A stretch of DNA of 64,000 nt, from the NCBI RefSeq assembly GCF_002214565.1, contig NZ_CP015106.1:620001-684000 (forward strand), given 5' to 3'. Made by a program: the position numbers and the translations under genes. Each line of letters begins with the position of its first letter. Position 1 is the first letter of the stretch. Origin of the DNA: Thermococcus radiotolerans. Its GTDB lineage: Archaea > Methanobacteriota_B > Thermococci > Thermococcales > Thermococcaceae. Under the pieces are notes generated by a model. It was not told where the DNA came from, did not search any database, and saw only the letters and a list, made by a program, of their open reading frames with translations. This document shows positions 16,163-41,342 of this stretch, piece after piece.

Positions 16163-16640
16163 ATGATACTCGATGTTCGTGGATTGCAGCCCCCGCAACC
16201 GGCTGTTATGATGGTGGAAGCCCTCGCCAAGCTCAAAGCGGGAGAAACTCTGGAGGTAATCGGCGACAAGCCTTTCGTTGACATGATAGGGAAGCTTGAG
16301 GAGGCCGGTTACAGGATTGAGTTGAAGGAAATCGGTGAAGCCTTCGTGCTCAGGATAACCAAAACCGAGAACTCGAGAGAGCTCACGATGGAACTCAAGG
16401 AGTGTGACGATAAGCTGGACGAGATAACCGAGGAAACCAACGTGGCCCAGCTCCTCAAAGTCTACCCGGAGTCCCTTAAGATACTTCGTGAAGTACGGCT
16501 TCTCACCCCTCGAGAATCCGGAGATGAGGAGAACCCTCGCCAAGACGATAACCCTGAAGGATGCCAAGAGCCTCCTCGGAATGAGCGACGAGAAGTTCGA
16601 AAAGATGATGGAAGAGCTTAAGGAACTGGAAAAGGCTTAA
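16163..16640 (+). pseudogene. DUF2249-DUF1858 protein gene split by a +1 frameshift
   Basis: Frame one, from ATG 16163 (after GGTGG), encodes a DUF2249 domain (LDVRGLQPPQP, LEVIGDKPFVDMIGKLEEAGY) and the start of DUF1858 (VAQLLKVYPESLKI). From about 16485 the homologous sequence continues in the next frame, with FVKYGFSPLENPEMRRTLAKT through KFEKMMEELKELEKA, to the TAA at 16638-16640. The first frame runs on as nonsense-like sequence to 16621. One extra base at 16484-16487 explains it. The intact product would have about 158 residues. It could be a true mutation, a strain-level event or a sequencing error. Confidence 0.75.
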
Positions 16641-16666
16641 ATATTCCGCGCGTCATAGTGGTACCC
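16634..16666 (+). promoter_or_regulatory. Promoter of the XRE-type regulator, sharing a motif with the upstream promoter
   Basis: The TATA-like element cttaaatatt (16636-16645) is followed at once by CCGCGCGTCATA (16646-16657), the same 12 bases that follow the TATA of the DUF2249 gene. Spacing from the TATA predicts transcription starting at or next to ATG 16667, so the mRNA may be leaderless. Confidence 0.5.
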
Positions 16667-17053
16667 ATGAAGACGAACGCCTTTGACGTCGCAGCAAGGT
16701 ACGTGTATCCCTCCCTGCGGAGAAGACTCGTTGAAATCCTTCGCGGAAAGGGCCTCAAGCAGACCGAGATAGGGGAGCTCCTGTACATCACTCAGTCCGC
16801 CGTCTCGCGCTATCTGAGGATGGACAGAGGGGCCCTGATAGACGTCTCGAAGTTCCCGGACATAGATGCCAGGGTGATGGCGCTGGCCGAGAGAATAGTC
16901 AGGGAGAGCCCGACAGAGTACGAGATTCATTCAGAGCTCGTCCGGATATCCCTCGAGATGCTCGGCAGGGGTTACGTCTGTTCCCTCCATTCACAGCTTG
17001 ACCCGGAGGTCGATCCCGCCAAGTGCAGGGTCTGCCTGGAACTTTTCGGCTGA
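16667..17053 (+). CDS. XRE-type helix-turn-helix regulator with C-terminal Cys motif
   Basis: About 128 residues, resembling the archaeal COG2522 predicted regulators. The helix-turn-helix is visible in KQTEIGELLYITQSAVSRYL. The C-terminal end has VCSLH and CRVCLELFG, three cysteines (one plus CxxC) and a His that could bind zinc or an iron-sulfur cluster. Its promoter carries the CCGCGCGTCATA motif, consistent with control of itself and of the neighbouring DUF2249 gene (inference). Confidence 0.7.
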   Translation: MKTNAFDVAARYVYPSLRRRLVEILRGKGLKQTEIGELLYITQSAVSRYLRMDRGALIDVSKFPDIDARVMALAERIVRESPTEYEIHSELVRISLEMLGRGYVCSLHSQLDPEVDPAKCRVCLELFG

Positions 17054-17079
17054 ACTAAGGCTTCTAGGGCGCTCTAAGG

Positions 17080-17124
17080 GAAGGTTTAATACCTTTCGAC
17101 GCCTATTTTAGCCCGGTGATATCC
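17080..17124 (+). promoter_or_regulatory. Promoter of the orphan gene at 17125
   Basis: AAGGTTTAATACCTT at 17081-17095 combines a TATA-like core with a 5-base inverted repeat. The ribosome-binding site GGTGAT at 17115-17120 precedes the GTG start. Confidence 0.45.
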
Positions 17125-17937
17125 GTGAAAAGGGCACTCGTAACTCTCACACCCCCCGAGAGCAAGAGGCTGATAGCCAGGGCGGTCGTGGCCATGCCGG
17201 AAGTTCAACACGCACTGAAGCACGGCTTCGTCTACATAGCCACCGGAACTACCGCTGCATACATAGCCGAGGAGATTCTAGGGGAGAAGATAGAGAAGGA
17301 GAAGTGGACCGTTGGCATAATAAGCAAGGGGCGGACGTGCGTCACGCCCAAGCAGACGTGGCCCAAGCACCTCGTCCTCTACAGGGGCGAACCGTTTGAT
17401 GATCCACTGGAGGCCCTCAAGCGGATGGGCCCAGAAGATGTTTTCATCAAGGGCGCCAACGCGATAGACATCAACTGGAACGTTGCAGTTTTTGCAGCGG
17501 CTCCTGACGGTGGGACGATAGGCAAGACCTTCGGCTGGACGATAACGAAGGGTGTCTTCACGATAACGCCGGTGAGCCTTGAGAAGTTCGTGCCGACACC
17601 GGTTGAGGAGAGCGCCAAGTTAACCGGCATCTACTCATTCGACTGGGGAACCGGGCTTTACTCGGCCCTCGTGCCGATACCGCATTCACATCCCGTCACC
17701 GAGGTCGAGGCGTACAGAATACTCGCGGGAGTCGAGGCGATTCCGATAGCGGCAGGCGGCGCCGGCGGAGCTGAAGGAAGCGTCACCCTCGTCCTTGAGG
17801 GCGATGATGAGGCCATGGAAACGGCGAAGGAGATAACGAAGGCAGTTAAGGGTGAGCCGTATCTCGAGCCCTACACCGAGGACTGCTCGATATGTCCGTT
17901 CGCAAACATCTGTGGCCTTGGAAGCGGCACTTTTTGA
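17125..17937 (+). CDS. Conserved hypothetical protein with C-terminal Cys motif
   Basis: About 270 residues, not recognised. It is soluble, with a glycine-rich segment (AAGGAGGAEGSVTLVLEGDDEA, in two parts around residues 215-235) that looks like a nucleotide or phosphate loop, and a C-terminal CSICPFANICG (C-x2-C-x5-C). GTG 17125 is preferred over GTG 17116 because of the GGTGAT spacing. It stands alone downstream of a putative redox regulator. No function is proposed. Confidence 0.6.
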   Translation: MKRALVTLTPPESKRLIARAVVAMPEVQHALKHGFVYIATGTTAAYIAEEILGEKIEKEKWTVGIISKGRTCVTPKQTWPKHLVLYRGEPFDDPLEALKRMGPEDVFIKGANAIDINWNVAVFAAAPDGGTIGKTFGWTITKGVFTITPVSLEKFVPTPVEESAKLTGIYSFDWGTGLYSALVPIPHSHPVTEVEAYRILAGVEAIPIAAGGAGGAEGSVTLVLEGDDEAMETAKEITKAVKGEPYLEPYTEDCSICPFANICGLGSGTF

Positions 17938-17977
17938 GCCGTGTCAATTCTTCCTCCTTATAAAACCGCATCGAGCA

Positions 17978-18706
17978 TCAAAGCGAAGCACCGGTTAGAA
18001 CCCAGACCCCTATCGCGATCAGCAGAATCCCCGCAACGACCGAAAGCTCCCGGCTCCTCCTCACCATGGCCTGGGAGAAGCGCTTGCTCTCCGTGACACT
18101 GCCCATGGCAAGCAGTATGATCACCAGCGGCAGCACGAACACCAGGTTGTAGAGGGCCAGAAGGAGGAAGGCGAGGGCCTCCCCTGCCTTCGAGATTATT
18201 ATCGCGTAGACCAGGTAGCTCCCTGCAGAGCATGGAAGGAGCGTGGTGGAGACTATGATGCCCAGGGTGAAGGCCCCCACGGCTGTGGCATCGCTGCTGA
18301 ATATCCTCTTCTTGACGCCCTTCTTGTCGGCTATGCGCGACTTCTCCATCAGCCCGGTGGCTATGGTGTAGGCCCCAAAGATTATCGCGGCAACCCCCGC
18401 GACCCAGAGGGGCAGATAACCGGCGAAGTAAAGCAGACCGACTCCAAGGAGGTAGTAGGATATGTACACCGCGGCTATGAAAGCGGCACCTATGAGGTAG
18501 AGCCGCCTCTTGGAAATCTCCCTGACCGAGAGGGCTATGAGGAGCATGGTGTATATGACGAACGTGCACGGGTTTATGGAGTCCGTCATCGCAAGGGTGA
18601 AGAACTGGGGGATGAAACCGCTCATGCCCAGTGCCCACAGCGCCAGGGAGCTTATCCCGAAGGATGCGAGGACTATGAGCGCCAGACCCTTTATCTCACT
18701 CCTCAT
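17978..18706 (-). CDS. CcdA/DsbD-like thiol-disulfide membrane transporter
   Basis: This 242-residue protein has six or seven helices. Two conserved helix-borne cysteines appear in DSINPCTFVIY (about residue 48) and TTLLPCSAGSYLVY (about 162), as in CcdA proteins, which move reducing power across the membrane. The next gene, on the same strand and just upstream, encodes an exported CxxC thioredoxin-like protein, a likely partner. A 61-base gap separates them. Confidence 0.82.
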   Translation of the reverse strand: MRSEIKGLALIVLASFGISSLALWALGMSGFIPQFFTLAMTDSINPCTFVIYTMLLIALSVREISKRRLYLIGAAFIAAVYISYYLLGVGLLYFAGYLPLWVAGVAAIIFGAYTIATGLMEKSRIADKKGVKKRIFSSDATAVGAFTLGIIVSTTLLPCSAGSYLVYAIIISKAGEALAFLLLALYNLVFVLPLVIILLAMGSVTESKRFSQAMVRRSRELSVVAGILLIAIGVWVLTGASL

Positions 18707-18767
18707 GGTAGAAAGTTATCGCGGGGCTTTTTGTGGCTTTCTAAAACAAAAAGTTGAGAACGAAAGG

Positions 18768-19349
18768 TCAGCGCCTCCGTTTGAGGAGAACCAGGGGAAT
18801 AACCGCAAGGGCAACCAGTATTCCCGGCCCGCAGATTCCACTGTTGCCCGGCGTGGTCGTGGTTGTGGTCGTCGTTACCGGCTCATCCGGATTCCTGTGC
18901 TCAACGTAGATAACCTGGAGCTTCTGGATTATGGTTTCGTTTTTTATTATGTACGCTTTTCCCCCGGTTACAAGGATCAGACCGCCGTTGTCCATCGCAG
19001 CCTTTACTATCTCCGGGGCCATTGAGACGTTAAACTCCCCCTCAACTATGGCCTCAAGTTTACCGTCGTAGGCTATGCCTATGGCCGGAACTCCCGCTAT
19101 GCCCGTGTACTGGTACTGGACGCCGAAGAGGGCCTGGTTCTCGGTATTGTCCACCAGCTCATAGTAAGTGAAGCTGTCGTTCCCGTAGACCCTCGGTATC
19201 TCCTCCTTCATCTTGCGGCAGTGGGGGCAGGTCTTCGCACCGTACATGTAGAAGTGGAGTTTATCCGGATTCACCTGGGCCTCCGCGACGGCGTATGATA
19301 CCGTCGAGATAAACAGCAGCCCTATGATAATTAAAACCAACTTTTTCAT
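18768..19349 (-). CDS. Exported thioredoxin-like protein with CGP-CTERM anchor
   Basis: 193 residues. It has an N-terminal signal peptide (LVLIIIGLLFISTVSYAVA), a thioredoxin-like fold with active site YGAKTCPHCRKMKEEIP, and a cis-Pro candidate in AGVPAIG. After a run of eight threonines the C-terminus is CGPGILVALAVIPLVLLKRRR in type (Cys-Gly-Pro, hydrophobic stretch, Arg cluster). That is the CGP-CTERM sorting signal found in Thermococcales, so the protein is probably lipid-anchored outside the cell. It likely exchanges electrons with the adjacent CcdA-like protein. Confidence 0.85.
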   Translation of the reverse strand: MKKLVLIIIGLLFISTVSYAVAEAQVNPDKLHFYMYGAKTCPHCRKMKEEIPRVYGNDSFTYYELVDNTENQALFGVQYQYTGIAGVPAIGIAYDGKLEAIVEGEFNVSMAPEIVKAAMDNGGLILVTGGKAYIIKNETIIQKLQVIYVEHRNPDEPVTTTTTTTTPGNSGICGPGILVALAVIPLVLLKRRR

Positions 19350-19441
19350 CTTCTCACCTGAACCTTATTCCCGTGGGAAGTTATAAACCTTGGCCGCGGA
19401 AAGCTTAAATCCTCCGAGTTGCAAAATTCTTGGGGATGATC

Positions 19442-19906
19442 ATGCAGGAGTGGTACCGCTCCAGGGCACTGTACGAGGCGGTTCTTAAACTCGTCAACTC
19501 TGGAAAGACCGAGGAAGCGCTTCAGATGGCGGATGGGATACCCGACAGGGTGATTCGCTCCAAGGCATTCTCGCATATAGCCATTGAAGTCGCACGAAAG
19601 GGCCGGGACTACGGGGAGGCCCTGGAGAGGGCGGTGAAGGCTGCCCTCGATATAGAAAACCACGAGGAGAGCACAAAGGCGCTCATGAGCCTGGCCTTCG
19701 AGTTCCTGAACCTCGGAAAGCCCGACGAGGCCATGAGGATATCCAAGTACATAACCGACCTCTCGAACAGATCCAAGGTTGAGGCCGAAGTTGCCCTGAC
19801 CCTAGCCAAGGCAGGGAAGATTTCAGAGGCGATGGAGATAATCAACGGCATAATGGACGATGACGTTAAGACGTGGGCGATGTCCAGACTAGCCAGCCAG
19901 CTTTAG
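19442..19906 (+). CDS. Small helical-repeat (TPR/HEAT-like) protein
   Basis: About 154 residues built from alternating amphipathic helices of roughly 35 residues (EEALQMADGIPDRVIRSKA, LAFEFLNLGKPDEAMRIS, LTLAKAGKISEAMEIING), which suggests TPR-like protein binding. It resembles in style the longer repeat protein at 34526. A TATA-like aagcttaaat at about 19401-19410 and GGGGATGATC before the ATG support the start. Function unknown. Confidence 0.65.
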   Translation: MQEWYRSRALYEAVLKLVNSGKTEEALQMADGIPDRVIRSKAFSHIAIEVARKGRDYGEALERAVKAALDIENHEESTKALMSLAFEFLNLGKPDEAMRISKYITDLSNRSKVEAEVALTLAKAGKISEAMEIINGIMDDDVKTWAMSRLASQL

Positions 19907-29578: not shown

Positions 29579-29707
29579 GTTCTGCACCTATGGGTGAGTT
29601 AGCCCAACCGTTATAAGGTTTTGTGCATAGGAAGAATTGCCCGACGAGTATTGGGTTGCGATGACGTCGGGACCCCCAGGGGGGCGACATCTCCACTGCC
29701 CCCCTTA

Positions 29708-29731
29708 CAAACTTTTCTGGTGAAAAGTTTG
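29708..29731. repeat. Hairpin repeat 1: CAAACTTTTC / GAAAAGTTTG
   Basis: A perfect 10-base stem with the 4-base loop TGGT. Related hairpins follow at 29987-30009 and 30080-30102. Confidence 0.6.
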
Positions 29732-29833
29732 ATCAAATAATTCTGACTGTTCATGAGGCGGGTTTTATAGTCTGTGCACTTTAAGGCAGGTAAGTTTTGT
29801 TGTTGGTTTGTTTTACAATTATGATTTAACAGT

Positions 29834-29883
29834 GGTTCACTCTCAAGAAAGGCGTCCAACGGACGCCAGAATGGGAGTGAACC
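29834..29883 (+). ncRNA. Candidate structured RNA, two-stem hairpin
   Basis: GGTTCACTCTC (29834-29844) pairs with GGGAGTGAACC (29873-29883) over 11 bases including one G-U pair. Inside, GGCGTCC (29851-29857) pairs perfectly with GGACGCC (29861-29867) around an AAC loop. Purine-rich internal loops AAGAAA and AGAAT separate the stems. A TATA-like element lies about 70 bases upstream. I see no ACA box or C/D boxes, so the RNA class is unknown. Confidence 0.4.
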
Positions 29884-29986
29884 CTTGTAAAAAGTCCAGC
29901 TTAATGTTAAACCTCCTTTTCCTATAGCAAATTTTAGAGCGCACGCATTATCCTCTGCCAGTTCGACAGGAAAAGAACTTTTTGGT

Positions 29987-30009
29987 GAAACTTTGCTGGA
30001 CAAAGTTTC
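29987..30009. repeat. Hairpin repeat 2: GAAACTTTG / CAAAGTTTC
   Basis: A perfect 9-base stem with loop CTGGA, sharing the AACTTT core and preceding TTTTGGTG with the other hairpins of this region. Confidence 0.6.
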
Positions 30010-30079
30010 AACGTCCAGATAAATTTTATAAGGGAATCTTCTATCAATCGGCGGGTTTAAAGGAACCGCGAACTTTGAT

Positions 30080-30102
30080 GAAACTTTGCCATGCAAAGCT
30101 TC
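30080..30102. repeat. Hairpin repeat 3: GAAACTTTGC / GCAAAGCTTC
   Basis: A 10-base stem with one mismatch and the loop CAT, just upstream of the rpl37Ae TATA element. Confidence 0.55.
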
Positions 30103-30178
30103 CAGGCAAAGGTTTATAAAACGTCCCCGGAAACACTCTCCAGTCGTGAAAATCGGTTGATAATTAGAGGTGATGCTC

Positions 30179-30439
30179 ATGGGAAGGACTACTAAGGTTG
30201 GTTCAGCCGGAAGATACGGTCCAAGGTACGGTCTCAAGATTAGAAGAAGGGTCGCGGCCGTTGAGGCCAAGATGAAGCAGAAGCACGTCTGCCCGGTCTG
30301 CGGAAGGAAGGCCGTTAGGAGGATTAGCACGGGCATATGGCAGTGCCAGAAGTGCGGCGCCACCTTCGCCGGCGGTGCCTACCTGCCGACCACTCCGGCC
30401 GGAAAGGTCGCCAAGCGTGTCACGGCCTCCAAGGCCTGA
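30179..30439 (+). CDS. rpl37ae: Large ribosomal subunit protein eL43 (L37Ae)
   Basis: 86 residues, [18 protein letters not shown] at the start and a C2-C2 zinc ribbon, CPVCGRKAV and [13 protein letters not shown]. It matches eL43 in length and sequence. ATG at 30179 has GAGGTGAT upstream; the frame opens at 30170. It leads the conserved cluster with rpoP, Brix and Pcc1. Confidence 0.95.
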
Positions 30440-36351: not shown

Positions 36352-38211
36352 TCAGATAAGCCCCATCCTCTTCTTCACGACCTCCAAAGCCCTCTCCGCA
36401 TCATCCTTGAACTCCGGATAGCCGAGCTCCTCCATCGTCTCCGGCAGCGGGACGCCGAGCTCCTCGTGCCAGCCCCTCAGCCGGTAGAATTCTTTCCTCG
36501 CTTCAAGGAAGTCGTTGTAGTCTATGAAGGCCGCGTTGCCCTCCGCAGGCCCGTCTGGCTCGGGCTCCCACCAGCGCGGTGGAATCGTATCGTCGAGCGG
36601 AGGAGTAACCCAGTCGAGGGCATCGTGTATCCTTGCTATGCTCTCAACTGCCTGCGCGACCTTCCTGAGCTTCTCTACCGTCCACTCCTCGCCGGTTGCT
36701 AGGGAGTAGAACCTCGCCAGATCCTCCATCTTGTAGGAAACGAACTTGCACGTTCCAAGCATGTCCGTTATGTAGCTCTCGTCCCTGCCCTCTATCATCG
36801 ACGGGACGAGTTCCCTAGCAGGCCCCTGGTTGGGCAGCTGGTGCGGCCTCGGCCAGCCCCTCAGGTGGCTCGCCCCAACGTCGGCAGTGGCGTAGCTGAG
36901 GGCGTAGGTCCTCCTTCCGCGCGGGTCCCAAGCGGGGCTTTCCATGCCCTTCACGTGAACTGCCAGTTCGCAGCCCCTGCCGAGCCTCTCGCAGGCCCTC
37001 TTAACGCCGTCCGCTAAAATCGCCCCAATTCCCCTCCTCTCGGCCATCAGCTTGATGAGCCTCTCCTCCGCTTCCTCGTCACCGAAGCCTTTAACCGGGA
37101 AGCCTATTTCATCCTCCGTGATTAAGCCCCTCTCCACTATCTCAAAGAGCCAGCCGATGGTCGCTCCGGTCGCTATGCTATCCAAGCCGAGGTTGTTGAC
37201 GAGCCAGTTGAAGTACGCCACCGCCGGGAAGTTGAACACTCCGGTCGCGGCTCCGAGCATGGCAATGCTCTCGTATTCAGGCTTGACGCGGATTTTTCTG
37301 CCCTTGTACTCGACCTCCACATAGCGGGCGCACTTTATCGGACAGCTCTTGCCGTGGACGAACCATTCCGGCTCGACCTCGTACTTCTTGACTTCGTCTC
37401 CAGCCAATTTGCTCGCTAACTCATCGGGTATGTGGGGCCTTGAGAAGTTGTACGCAGGACTCATTCCAAGGGAAGCCGAGCTCCTCAGCCCATCGCTCGT
37501 GCCGTAGTTTCTACTGTGCTCGTACTTCGGATCGGTGGCGAAGTGGTCGTAGAACTCCTGCCAGAGTCTCTGGAACTCCTCGGGGTTGGCAACAGGGGGC
37601 TTCTCACCGGGTTCGACGACGACCGCCTTAACCCGCTTGCTCCCAAGAACGGCCCCAAGGCCGCCCCTTCCGCTCGCCCTCTCCGTGTCGTAGATGACGT
37701 TGGCTATCCTGCTCAGCTTCTCTCCGGCCGGCCCGATGAGTGCCACGCTCGAAGTAGGGTGCTCCCTCCAGAGTTCTCTGGCGACCTCGTAGTTTCCTTT
37801 ACCCCAGAGATGCTTTGCGTTCCTAATCTCGACCTTTCCATCATGGACGTAGAGGTAAACCGGCTCCTCAGCTTTACCTTCGATTATCAGGGCGTCGAAG
37901 TGCCCCTTGAGCTTCGGCCCGAAGGCGTCTCCGCCGCTGGAGTCGCTTATGAGCCCCGTCTCTGGGCTCTTGCTGACGGCTATGACCTTGCTCGAGCCGG
38001 GTATGAGGCCCGTCAGTCCACCCGGCGCAAAGATGAACTTGTTGGCCGGGCTTAACGGGTCGGTTCCGGGCGGAACCTCCCGGTAAATCAGGTAGTAGCC
38101 GAGCCCCTTCCCGCCGATGAACTTCCTTATCATCTCGTCGGGCAGTTCCTCATACGTCACCCTTCCAGTACTCAGGTTAACCCGGGCTATCCTGTTATGG
38201 TAGCCGTACAT
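36352..38211 (-). CDS. Tungsten aldehyde:ferredoxin oxidoreductase family protein (WOR4-like)
   Basis: About 619 residues of the AOR family, with NLSTGRVTYEELP at the start and SSGGDAFGPKLK for the pterin site. The 4Fe-4S ligands of AOR are CxxCxxxC plus a distant Cys. Here the first is Gly (GKSCPIKC, Gly287, Cys290, Cys294) and the distant one is Cys488 in DMLGTCKF. Three ligands suggest a 3Fe cluster, as I recall reported for P. furiosus WOR4, which has similar length. Substrate unknown. ATG at 38211 overlaps the aldo/keto reductase stop (TAATG). Confidence 0.8.
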   Translation of the reverse strand: MYGYHNRIARVNLSTGRVTYEELPDEMIRKFIGGKGLGYYLIYREVPPGTDPLSPANKFIFAPGGLTGLIPGSSKVIAVSKSPETGLISDSSGGDAFGPKLKGHFDALIIEGKAEEPVYLYVHDGKVEIRNAKHLWGKGNYEVARELWREHPTSSVALIGPAGEKLSRIANVIYDTERASGRGGLGAVLGSKRVKAVVVEPGEKPPVANPEEFQRLWQEFYDHFATDPKYEHSRNYGTSDGLRSSASLGMSPAYNFSRPHIPDELASKLAGDEVKKYEVEPEWFVHGKSCPIKCARYVEVEYKGRKIRVKPEYESIAMLGAATGVFNFPAVAYFNWLVNNLGLDSIATGATIGWLFEIVERGLITEDEIGFPVKGFGDEEAEERLIKLMAERRGIGAILADGVKRACERLGRGCELAVHVKGMESPAWDPRGRRTYALSYATADVGASHLRGWPRPHQLPNQGPARELVPSMIEGRDESYITDMLGTCKFVSYKMEDLARFYSLATGEEWTVEKLRKVAQAVESIARIHDALDWVTPPLDDTIPPRWWEPEPDGPAEGNAAFIDYNDFLEARKEFYRLRGWHEELGVPLPETMEELGYPEFKDDAERALEVVKKRMGLI

Positions 38212-39035
38212 TAGACGCACCCCCTCGCCTTCTCCCTATCATCCTTCGTGAGCCTCCAGCCCATCGCACCGGCGTTCTCTTCGATATGGGCCTTGCTGCC
38301 CGCCTTGGGAATGGCTACAACGTTGTCCTCCCAGATGAGGTAGTTCAAAGCCACCTGCGCTGCGGTTTTGTCGTAGGATTTTCCAATCTCGGCCAGACAT
38401 TGGTTTCTCGCGAGCGAGCCCTTCTCCAGTGGAGTGTAGGCTATGAGTGCCATCTTTTCGCGCTTCATGTAATCTAGAAGCCCGCTCGTCTCGGGCCACC
38501 TGTCGCGGAGCGAGTACTTCACCTCGTTGGCAACTATCTCGTACTTCCTCATAGCTTCCTGGGAGCGCTTGAGAAGCTCGAGGTCGAAGTTGCTGACGCC
38601 TATGTAGCGAATGAGTCCCTCATCCACAAGCTCCTCCAAGGCGTGAAGCGTTTCCTCGATTCTTCCCCACTCTGTGCCGGGCCAGTGGAGAAGGTAGAGG
38701 TCTATGTACGTGCCGAGCCTCTTCGCACTCGCCCTTGCGGCCCTCTTTGCACTCTCGCGGCCGAAGTGGGTTGGCCACACCTTGCTGATGATGAAAATCT
38801 CTTCGCGCTCGAAGCCCCTAATCGCTTCCCCGACGAGCTCCTCGCTGTGACCGGCTCCGTAGAACTCGGCCGTGTCAATGAGGTTAATCCCCAGCTCCAG
38901 ACCGTATCTCAGGGCCTCGATGTTTTCCTTATCGCGAGAATAATCGGGGCTCTCGTAGCCCCCTATGCCCCACGTGCCCATGCCAATGGCGGTGACCTTA
39001 TCAGAACCGATAATCTTCAAATCCTTAGGCACCAT
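38211..39035 (-). CDS. Aldo/keto reductase
   Basis: 274 residues, TIM-barrel AKR. The catalytic tetrad is visible: Asp and Tyr in LIDTAEFYGAGHSEE, Lys in IISKVWPTHFG, His in LYLLHWPGTEW. AIPKAGSKAHIEEN is the NADPH-binding end. ATG follows GGTGAT. It is translationally coupled to the tungsten oxidoreductase, so the two may handle the same aldehyde/alcohol pool (inference). Confidence 0.88.
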   Translation of the reverse strand: MVPKDLKIIGSDKVTAIGMGTWGIGGYESPDYSRDKENIEALRYGLELGINLIDTAEFYGAGHSEELVGEAIRGFEREEIFIISKVWPTHFGRESAKRAARASAKRLGTYIDLYLLHWPGTEWGRIEETLHALEELVDEGLIRYIGVSNFDLELLKRSQEAMRKYEIVANEVKYSLRDRWPETSGLLDYMKREKMALIAYTPLEKGSLARNQCLAEIGKSYDKTAAQVALNYLIWEDNVVAIPKAGSKAHIEENAGAMGWRLTKDDREKARGCV

Positions 39036-39130
39036 AACCCATCACCACGTCGGTAGAATTAGGAAACCGAACTTAATTAAGGTTTCCATCTGAACGCTAA
39101 GATAAAGGGACAAAAATGGATAAAGGATTG

Positions 39131-40033
39131 TTAGTCCCTTGATGTTTTTGCTTGAATTTTTTCAATCAGCAAATAAACTTCCTCAATTGCGTGGATAGAT
39201 TCTACAAATATCCTCTCAGCTTCGTTTATCTCGAACACTTTATCAGGATGCTCTGCACTATTACGTATTTCTCTCAAAAAATCCAAATATCCCTCCAATC
39301 GCTTAGATCTGATTTTGCGATATTCTAACTGCTTTTGGATTTCAGAAAGAGCATAATTCCATGTGGGGTAAGAATCTACTTCGTTAACGTCTTCATTTGT
39401 TAATTTGAAATACAGGTCCCTAATTGCAGCCTCTACCGCTCTCAATGATATCATTACAGAGGCCGTGGGAAGATCAAACAGCAATGCCTTAAAAGACTCC
39501 AGTAAATCATGCGATACTATTTCAGGAATGTGGTTAACCACTATCTCTGGGTATGAGAACAATGGCTGTAATCCGGTGGATAGCAGGTTTTCGTAATCTA
39601 AGATGCCCTTATGAACTTCAATCTCAATAGTTTTCCTTTTTGAGAGTTCCTGTTGTAAGAGAGTTATTATGATTTCAACAGTCCGCCTAAGAGCTCTTAA
39701 GTCATTTTCATCGATGTTCCTTGGAGTAGACTCAAGTTCGGAAGCATATTTCTGGTGAAGGTATGAAATCAACTCATCCAATTCGCTGTATTGAATTATA
39801 TGCTCTAACCCCTTTCTTTTCAAGAAATCTTGAATCAGGTACAATGTCCACAATATATATCCTTTGCCTTTTTGATCGCTAACTTCTCCAGAAGGCAAAA
39901 CAACTAAATCCTCAGGTCTAGCTAGTCGTATGTATTCTGTCCAAGTTCCAATTGTATACGCGTCAATTAAGTCTATCGGCTCTACAACAGGTTCAGAAGT
40001 TTGTTGGGGCAAAGTCCCATTCTCATCTTCCAT
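39131..40033 (-). CDS. AT-rich islet gene with HEPN/DUF4145-like C-terminus
   Basis: About 300 residues. The gene is much richer in A/T than everything around it, pointing to recent transfer. The N-terminal 180 residues are unrecognised. The C-terminal 110 are helical, with ASVMISLRAVEAAIRDLYF and LDFLREIRNSAEHPDKVF. Arg257-x4-His262 matches the R-x4-6-H motif of HEPN ribonucleases and the shape of DUF4145. It has its own promoter and no partner gene next to it. A defence or RNase role is inferred. Confidence 0.6.
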   Translation of the reverse strand: MEDENGTLPQQTSEPVVEPIDLIDAYTIGTWTEYIRLARPEDLVVLPSGEVSDQKGKGYILWTLYLIQDFLKRKGLEHIIQYSELDELISYLHQKYASELESTPRNIDENDLRALRRTVEIIITLLQQELSKRKTIEIEVHKGILDYENLLSTGLQPLFSYPEIVVNHIPEIVSHDLLESFKALLFDLPTASVMISLRAVEAAIRDLYFKLTNEDVNEVDSYPTWNYALSEIQKQLEYRKIRSKRLEGYLDFLREIRNSAEHPDKVFEINEAERIFVESIHAIEEVYLLIEKIQAKTSRD

Positions 40034-40085
40034 TGTGTCCACCCACTAACAATAAACGTAACTAGTGGTATAAAAAAGTTTGGTC
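40034..40085 (-). promoter_or_regulatory. Promoter of the AT-rich islet gene
   Basis: On the minus strand aacttttttataccac (plus 40062-40080) provides a TATA element, followed by GGTGG before ATG at 40033. Confidence 0.45.
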
Positions 40086-40106
40086 TAATAGAATATTGAG
40101 AAAAAA

Positions 40107-41342
40107 TTAAGCCCCAAACTTCTCGGAGCGGTTCATGAGGTCCATCATTATCGGCACTATGTCGTGGCCCTTTATCCTGCCGAGGCCGCCGCGCATGCAC
40201 TCGCGCTCGCCGAAGCTCTCCGTGTAGTCGGGCCTAACGCCACCACCAGCTATGAGAACCGGAACAGGGTCGCCGCTGTGGTTCATGACCTCACAGGGCG
40301 TTGAATGGTCGCCGGTTATCGCTATGACGACGTCCTCAAGGTCAACCTTGTCAACTATGTATCCTATCATCCTGTCGGCCTTCTCTATCATCTCGACCTT
40401 GAGCCTCGGGTTGTTGTCGTGGCCCGCTGCATCGGTCGGCTTGAAGTGCAGGAAGACGAAGTCGTACTCATTGAGGAGCTCGACCACTTTCCTCGCCTTC
40501 GCCATCTCGTCGGTGTTGTACTCGCCGGTGGCCCCCTCGGGGGTGTATATGTCGAAGCCTATCGCCCTTGCGACGCCCTTGACGAGGGAAACCGCAACGA
40601 CCGCCGCTGCCTTTACCTTCCACTGCTCGGTGAACTTCATCGGTATGTCCGGATAGGTGCCGGCGCCCCTCACCAGGAGGTAGTTGGCCACGGGCTTACC
40701 CGCCTTTCTGCGCTCCTCGTTGACGGGATGCCTTTCGAGAACCTTGTGTGCCTGTCTGACGAACTCGTTGAGTATCTCGGCAACGCGCCTGCTCTCCTCA
40801 TCCTCCCAGGTGAACTCGTGGGGCGGCTTTCCGGCCTCGTGCGGGTCGTTCTCGCCGACTTTATAGCCAGCCGCCATGCCCTTGAGAACGAGAACCGCCC
40901 TGTGGCCGGTCGCTCCAACGAAGATGAAGTCAACGGGGAGCTTAACGTTCTCCTGGATGGCCTTCGCCAGCTCGTGGGCTTCCTCCGTGCTTATCCTTCC
41001 GGCGCGCCTGTCTGTTATGACACCGTTCTCGATGGTCGCGAAGTTTACGCGGAAAGCCAAGTCGTCCTCATCGAGGTCTAGACCGACGCCGAGGGCCTCA
41101 AGGAAGCCCCTTCCGCGGTAGACCTTGTAGGGGTCGTAGCCGAAGATGCTCAGATGAGCGGTGTCGCTGCCAGCCGGCTGTCCGGGCTTTATCGGATCCT
41201 GCTGGCCGAGGAGCCCCCATCTCGCAAGCCCATCCATGTTTGGGGTGTTTGCGTACTCAAGCGGAGTTTTTCCGCCGAGCTCCTTTATCGGCCTGTCCCC
41301 AAGGCCATCAAGGATTATGAGAAGTCCCTTCCTCTGCTTCAT
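40107..41342 (-). CDS. apgM: 2,3-bisphosphoglycerate-independent phosphoglycerate mutase, archaeal type
   Basis: 411 residues from the ATG at 41342, which follows GGTGAT; the open frame extends 174 bases further but lacks a site. GLLIILDGLGDRPI holds the first metal ligand, AGSDTAHLSIFGYDP the phosphorylated Ser region, FKPTDAAGHDN and TGDHSTPCEV the remaining metal ligands. It interconverts 3- and 2-phosphoglycerate in glycolysis and gluconeogenesis. Confidence 0.93.
   Translation of the reverse strand: MKQRKGLLIILDGLGDRPIKELGGKTPLEYANTPNMDGLARWGLLGQQDPIKPGQPAGSDTAHLSIFGYDPYKVYRGRGFLEALGVGLDLDEDDLAFRVNFATIENGVITDRRAGRISTEEAHELAKAIQENVKLPVDFIFVGATGHRAVLVLKGMAAGYKVGENDPHEAGKPPHEFTWEDEESRRVAEILNEFVRQAHKVLERHPVNEERRKAGKPVANYLLVRGAGTYPDIPMKFTEQWKVKAAAVVAVSLVKGVARAIGFDIYTPEGATGEYNTDEMAKARKVVELLNEYDFVFLHFKPTDAAGHDNNPRLKVEMIEKADRMIGYIVDKVDLEDVVIAITGDHSTPCEVMNHSGDPVPVLIAGGGVRPDYTESFGERECMRGGLGRIKGHDIVPIMMDLMNRSEKFGA

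Follow-up and report, generated by a model that had tools for sequence, protein, structure and literature searches.

The 64,000-nucleotide stretch of Thermococcus radiotolerans DNA analyzed here (contig NZ_CP015106.1, positions 620,001 to 684,000; hereafter the window) contains an AT-rich islet at positions 39120..40107 (no strand assigned) that consists of one gene plus its own promoter. The gene (39131..40033, minus strand) most likely starts at an ATG and encodes a protein of 300 residues with a C-terminal HEPN domain. The reading we favor, to which we give about an even chance, is that of a one-gene islet moving horizontally among Thermococcales and coding for a predicted HEPN ribonuclease (RNase) with a putative N-terminal sensor, that is, an abortive-infection or toxin gene.

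The islet lies between two housekeeping genes, which we take to encode a cofactor-independent phosphoglycerate mutase (apgM) and an aldo/keto reductase (AKR). It can be defined as one gene with its promoter because in G013, a close congener with collinear DNA on both sides, only 7 bp stand in place of the window's 988 bp. By blastn, window positions 36364-39119 and 40108-40424 are collinear with positions 16422-19177 and 19185-19501 of the G013 locus L086, and the G013 DNA flanking the islet site is 88-91% identical to the window. The left edge of the islet, in gene orientation, abuts the apgM stop codon. The GC content is 0.38 in the 1-kb interval 39001-40000; nearly all other 1-kb intervals have 0.55-0.60, and the neighborhood is at ~57%. 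Measured against the window's own 64 open reading frames (ORFs) of at least 120 residues, which served as the codon-usage reference, the islet gene, itself at 38% GC, has the lowest codon-usage score (-0.38; mean 0.18, S.D. 0.15) and a GC content at third codon positions of 0.37 (mean 0.73, S.D. 0.09). An initial sequence-only reading had described a single-gene block poorer in G/C than its neighbors at 39131-40085; the block is real, and the comparison moves its limits to 39120-40107. The AT-rich block holds no second plausible ORF on either strand. There is no integrase or partner gene within the islet, and no target duplication or terminal repeats are evident by eye at its ends. An integrative element was considered and rejected, as the window has no tRNA and the islet no integrase.

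The mechanically called ORF (39131-40042, minus strand) begins at an upstream GTG and has 303 residues, and residue numbers here follow this longer form. The ATG at 40033 is favored as the most likely start from the alignment, because the GTG start of the orthologue in genome G016 and the GGTG purine box preceding it align there. An archaeal-type promoter, the BRE/TATA-like block AAACTTTTTTATA (40069..40081, minus strand), is situated ~35 nucleotides ahead of this ATG; that the gene has its own promoter had been proposed in the sequence-only reading. A similar block recurs before the other orthologues, and the promoter therefore belongs to the unit.

The C-terminal domain (residues 174-302; 39137..39523, minus strand) is assigned to HEPN because a paralogue scores above the Pfam threshold for HEPN and because the 15 best fold matches of the modeled domain in the Protein Data Bank (PDB) are all HEPN proteins. 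The paralogue (L074) is a second, diverged member of the family in genome G107, 38% identical, and scores 23.4 bits against PF05168, for which the cut-off is 22 (E 7e-5). The G016 copy reaches 19.3 bits with the same family (E 0.0013). An AlphaFold model built with four sequences has a predicted local distance difference test (pLDDT) score of 75 for the whole protein; the C-terminal domain has a pLDDT of 79 and a predicted template modeling (pTM) score of 0.77, and is a predicted four-helix HEPN bundle. When this domain model was compared with the PDB using Foldseek, ranks 1-15 were all HEPN proteins, with probabilities of 0.77-1.00. They include 2hsb (probability 1.00, target TM score 0.73), the HepT toxins 5yep, 7ae6, and 7bxo, and the HEPN domain of sacsin. 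No solved structural relatives were found by sequence search. The protein is DUF4145-like, yet by the curated Pfam rule it falls outside DUF4145 (PF13643), as the gathering score of 23.1 bits is missed by both the window protein (13.1) and the paralogue (18.7).

Two motifs are found at the positions defined for HEPN helices in PMC3710099. The Rx4H motif, R260-N-S-A-E-H265, is at the end of helix 3 (39248..39265, minus strand) and conforms to the general Rx4-6H pattern in which the Arg is followed by a polar residue, and the accessory acidic Ex3[KR] motif, E204-A-A-I-R208, is in helix 2 (39419..39433, minus strand), its Glu and Arg being invariant in the four aligned copies. R260 and H265 are both present in the window protein, the G107 copy, and the G107 paralogue. 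The sequence-only reading, which had proposed the HEPN/DUF4145-like domain that the paralogue score, fold matches, and motifs now support, had located the motif correctly and misnumbered its residues as Arg-257 and His-262. An Arg-257 does exist, and it is invariant, as is R260. The expected conservation of the histidine does not extend to all copies, since the stretch with the motif helix is deleted in genome G029 and the G016 copy differs at this position.

The N-terminal region (about residues 20-160; 39563..39985, minus strand) is helical with two short strands in the AlphaFold model, and has no Pfam, NCBIfam, or PADLOC match above cut-off. The N-terminal half is likely a sensor or regulatory part. 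Metal-independent RNase activity has been predicted or shown for HEPN domains with the Rx4H motif, which serve as the toxins of abortive-infection and toxin-antitoxin systems (PMC3710099). We infer that a trigger, for example virus infection, would be sensed via the N-terminal half, upon which the HEPN domain (of the DUF4145/HEPN clade), a predicted metal-independent RNase, would cut cellular or viral RNA. Such cleavage would stop growth, as for abortive-infection proteins and solo HEPN toxins. By analogy, a partnerless gene of this size would most resemble those HEPN abortive-infection proteins in which the other half of the protein senses or restrains.

The gene is rare and its distribution is that of a mobile unit. 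Orthologues were found in only 4 of the 115 genomes of the phylum (4 of 396 relatives), at three chromosomal sites. The window genome, a single contig of 1.87 Mb, is one carrier, and its relatives are Thermococcales. The copy of G016 is situated at the same apgM-AKR site, with the AKR start at a contig edge. G029 carries its copy at another site, between what are presumably a thyX-side ORF and a HIT-family gene. G107, which belongs to a different genus, has it at a further site (L005, apparently the same contig), between genes we take to be a HAD hydrolase and argF. Identity of the islet protein to the window is 84% for G107 (C-terminal 220 residues), 73% for G029, and 71% for G016. For apgM the corresponding values are 84, 88, and 89%, and for AKR 76, 82, and 85%. 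The order for the islet protein thus reverses that for apgM and AKR, which indicates that the gene was transferred horizontally between species. This claim is based on the identities; the apgM tree placed the hosts poorly, and the five-row gene tree has no supported branch. The DNA following the G107 copy contains a 40-bp stretch in which 33 of 40 positions agree with the AKR promoter found in the window and in G013. Its match score is 40, compared with a 99th percentile of 27 for 2000 control pieces (the control pool included the stretch itself, hence a pool maximum of 40). This one short match suggests that the G107 copy came from an apgM-AKR site. Empty sites, several occupied sites, and the conflict with host relatedness agree with the original proposal of a horizontally acquired single-gene insertion.

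Two further observations were made on family members. The G107 paralogue sits beside AT-rich genes (L078, G107:C28, 226-8991) in a cluster that also holds a 708-residue unknown protein, a Schlafen/AlbA_2 protein, and an MCM OB-domain ORF, and that is possibly an integrated element or a defense cluster. In genome G023 (L079, G023:C43, about 2608-2709), a stretch of 34 residues weakly resembles residues 131-164 (E 0.007), perhaps as a sequence relic of another lost copy.

Two of the four orthologues are frameshifted. The G029 copy has several indels, besides the deletion of the motif helix. In the G107 copy one base shifts the reading frame; this copy comes from a metagenome-assembled genome, so an assembly error is possible. 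The G016 copy is intact. The ratio of nonsynonymous to synonymous substitutions (dN/dS, by YN00) comes to about 0.09 for the comparison with G016 and 0.14 for that with G107; these values near 0.1 imply that the protein was under selection before it decayed. The frameshifts of G029 (L004/L007) and G107 (L005) lie near the same residue, 83-86, and give the same net shift (a 4-base versus a 1-base deletion), which is probably a coincidence. Programmed frameshifting was rejected: the window and G016 copies read through, the indels differ in length (4 versus 1 bases), the copy of G029 carries additional deletions, and no slippery site was seen.

The gene is rare, has been transferred together with its promoter, and has decayed repeatedly, which fits a conditional gene that is costly to keep, and a role in defense or as a toxin would fit both the family, by analogy, and the pattern of loss. 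Several results weigh against the favored reading. On its own, the window protein does not reach the Pfam cut-offs, with 13.1 bits for DUF4145 and 9.8 bits for HEPN, and a comparison of profiles built on very shallow alignments gave no match to the genome's four ordinary HEPN proteins. The Foldseek E-values are individually weak (0.08-0.5); despite this, fold matches of the model that are so consistently HEPN are not chance-like. H265 is replaced by Tyr in the intact G016 copy. The best PADLOC match of the window protein, to LeoBC (E 0.035), was judged not significant, and the G016 copy and the paralogue had none. No defense or antitoxin genes adjoin the islet, and no virus or plasmid relatives were found by tblastn and pattern scans of phage records, plasmids, and viral contigs.

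A rather unlikely alternative is that the protein is a selfish or stress-type HEPN toxin without an antiviral role, with its antitoxin encoded elsewhere, or an orphan restrained by its own N-terminal half. The HEPN toxins of toxin-antitoxin systems share the fold, HepT being among the best matches, and repeatedly inactivated copies would fit a costly toxin. The four ordinary HEPN genes of the host genome each adjoin a nucleotidyltransferase-like gene; the islet, however, neither contains nor moves together with a nucleotidyltransferase or small partner gene, and its protein is twice as large as HepT. A non-catalytic HEPN protein, RNA-binding or regulatory, with a partly conserved Rx4H motif, is less likely again. 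The Tyr in the G016 copy would agree with it, and catalytically dead, possibly RNA-binding HEPN families have been described, part of the MtlR family being one example (PMC3710099). Against this, the window protein, the G107 copy, and the strongly diverged paralogue of G107 (36-42% identity) all have the His, and none of the four aligned sequences lacks R260, N261, or E204. That the gene is old and vertically inherited, lost many times, with its AT-richness a mere quirk and no mobility, is very improbable. The window genome and the less related G016 do share the apgM-AKR site, but the closest copy is in another genus, contrary to host relatedness, further copies are at other sites, and the AKR-promoter-like stretch beside the G107 copy suggests departure from an apgM-AKR site. 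A more specific version of the favored reading, which we regard as decidedly unlikely, is a Thermococcales-specific single-gene immune RNase. Here the N-terminal half would be a new sensor that responds to a viral signal by releasing the HEPN domain, and the minimal cassette of promoter plus gene would spread by homologous exchange of its chromosomal flanks, without an integrase.

Among known systems, the DUF4145-like clade of the HEPN superfamily (PF13643; PF05168; clan CL0291; Anantharaman et al. 2013, PMC3710099) is similar in that the domain lies at the C terminus of a larger protein and is scattered in distribution. In contrast, the N-terminal half of the islet protein matches by Pfam none of the partners listed for that clade (restriction endonuclease, helicase, AbiJ-NTD, and others), and the gene is outside any restriction-modification operon. 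The HepT-MntA (HEPN-MNT) toxin-antitoxin system shares the HEPN fold, and HepT ranks among the best structural matches, but the islet protein has 300 rather than ~130 residues and there is no two-gene operon; no MNT nucleotidyltransferase gene is adjacent, the neighbors being apgM and AKR with no partner ORF in the islet. RnlA/LsoA and Csm6/Csx1 combine an N-terminal regulatory part with a C-terminal HEPN RNase, a layout predicted for the islet protein as well. LsoA (5hy3) and Csm6 (6tug, 8jbb) occur in its fold list with probabilities of only 0.13-0.25; unlike them, it has no recognized CARF or RnlA-type domain and no adjoining antitoxin or CRISPR genes.

A viral origin was rejected in view of the lack of tblastn or pattern relatives in the phage, plasmid, and viral-contig sets. 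Weak PHROG matches (phrog_1305, E 1.4e-4; phrog_32483, E 2.2e-4) hint at distant viral kin, and across the 396 genomes phrog_32483 matches only the copies of the islet gene. A BFVD fold search gave no useful match, and no Rfam families were found in the window between 36 and 44 kb.

The flanking genes are conserved anchors of the site. The upstream apgM (40107..41333, minus strand) is present in all but one congener searched, with 86-95% identity, and the downstream anchor is AKR (38211..39035, minus strand). The interval between them was examined in 17 congeners, G013 included, and the islet gene was found in none. Six have a short gap without a gene, and in the others 0.7 to 14 kb is taken up by unrelated genes, most of them normal in GC content; because of these gaps and unrelated genes, the apgM-AKR site is a labile chromosomal junction in the genus. 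The interval (39036-40106 in the window; L053-L069) varies widely in length across the genus, between 70 bp and about 14 kb, and its contents in congeners presumably include cobalamin-biosynthesis-like genes and DUF2202-like proteins. Elsewhere in the window, a second low-GC ORF (29611-30363; GC 0.47, GC content at third codon positions 0.48) has no Pfam match and is surrounded by DNA that is collinear and ~96% identical in G013.

The islet gene is a new, small Thermococcales branch of an already known HEPN kind, one that the Pfam, NCBIfam, and PADLOC cut-offs leave unnamed in standard annotation, and it leaves the broad picture unchanged. Little is known about archaeal defense genes other than those of CRISPR and restriction-modification (PMC12988326). 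Should the protein prove to be a solo HEPN RNase with activity, the genus, which has laboratory hosts, would gain a small candidate that can be tested, with the empty, broken, and intact copies as natural controls.
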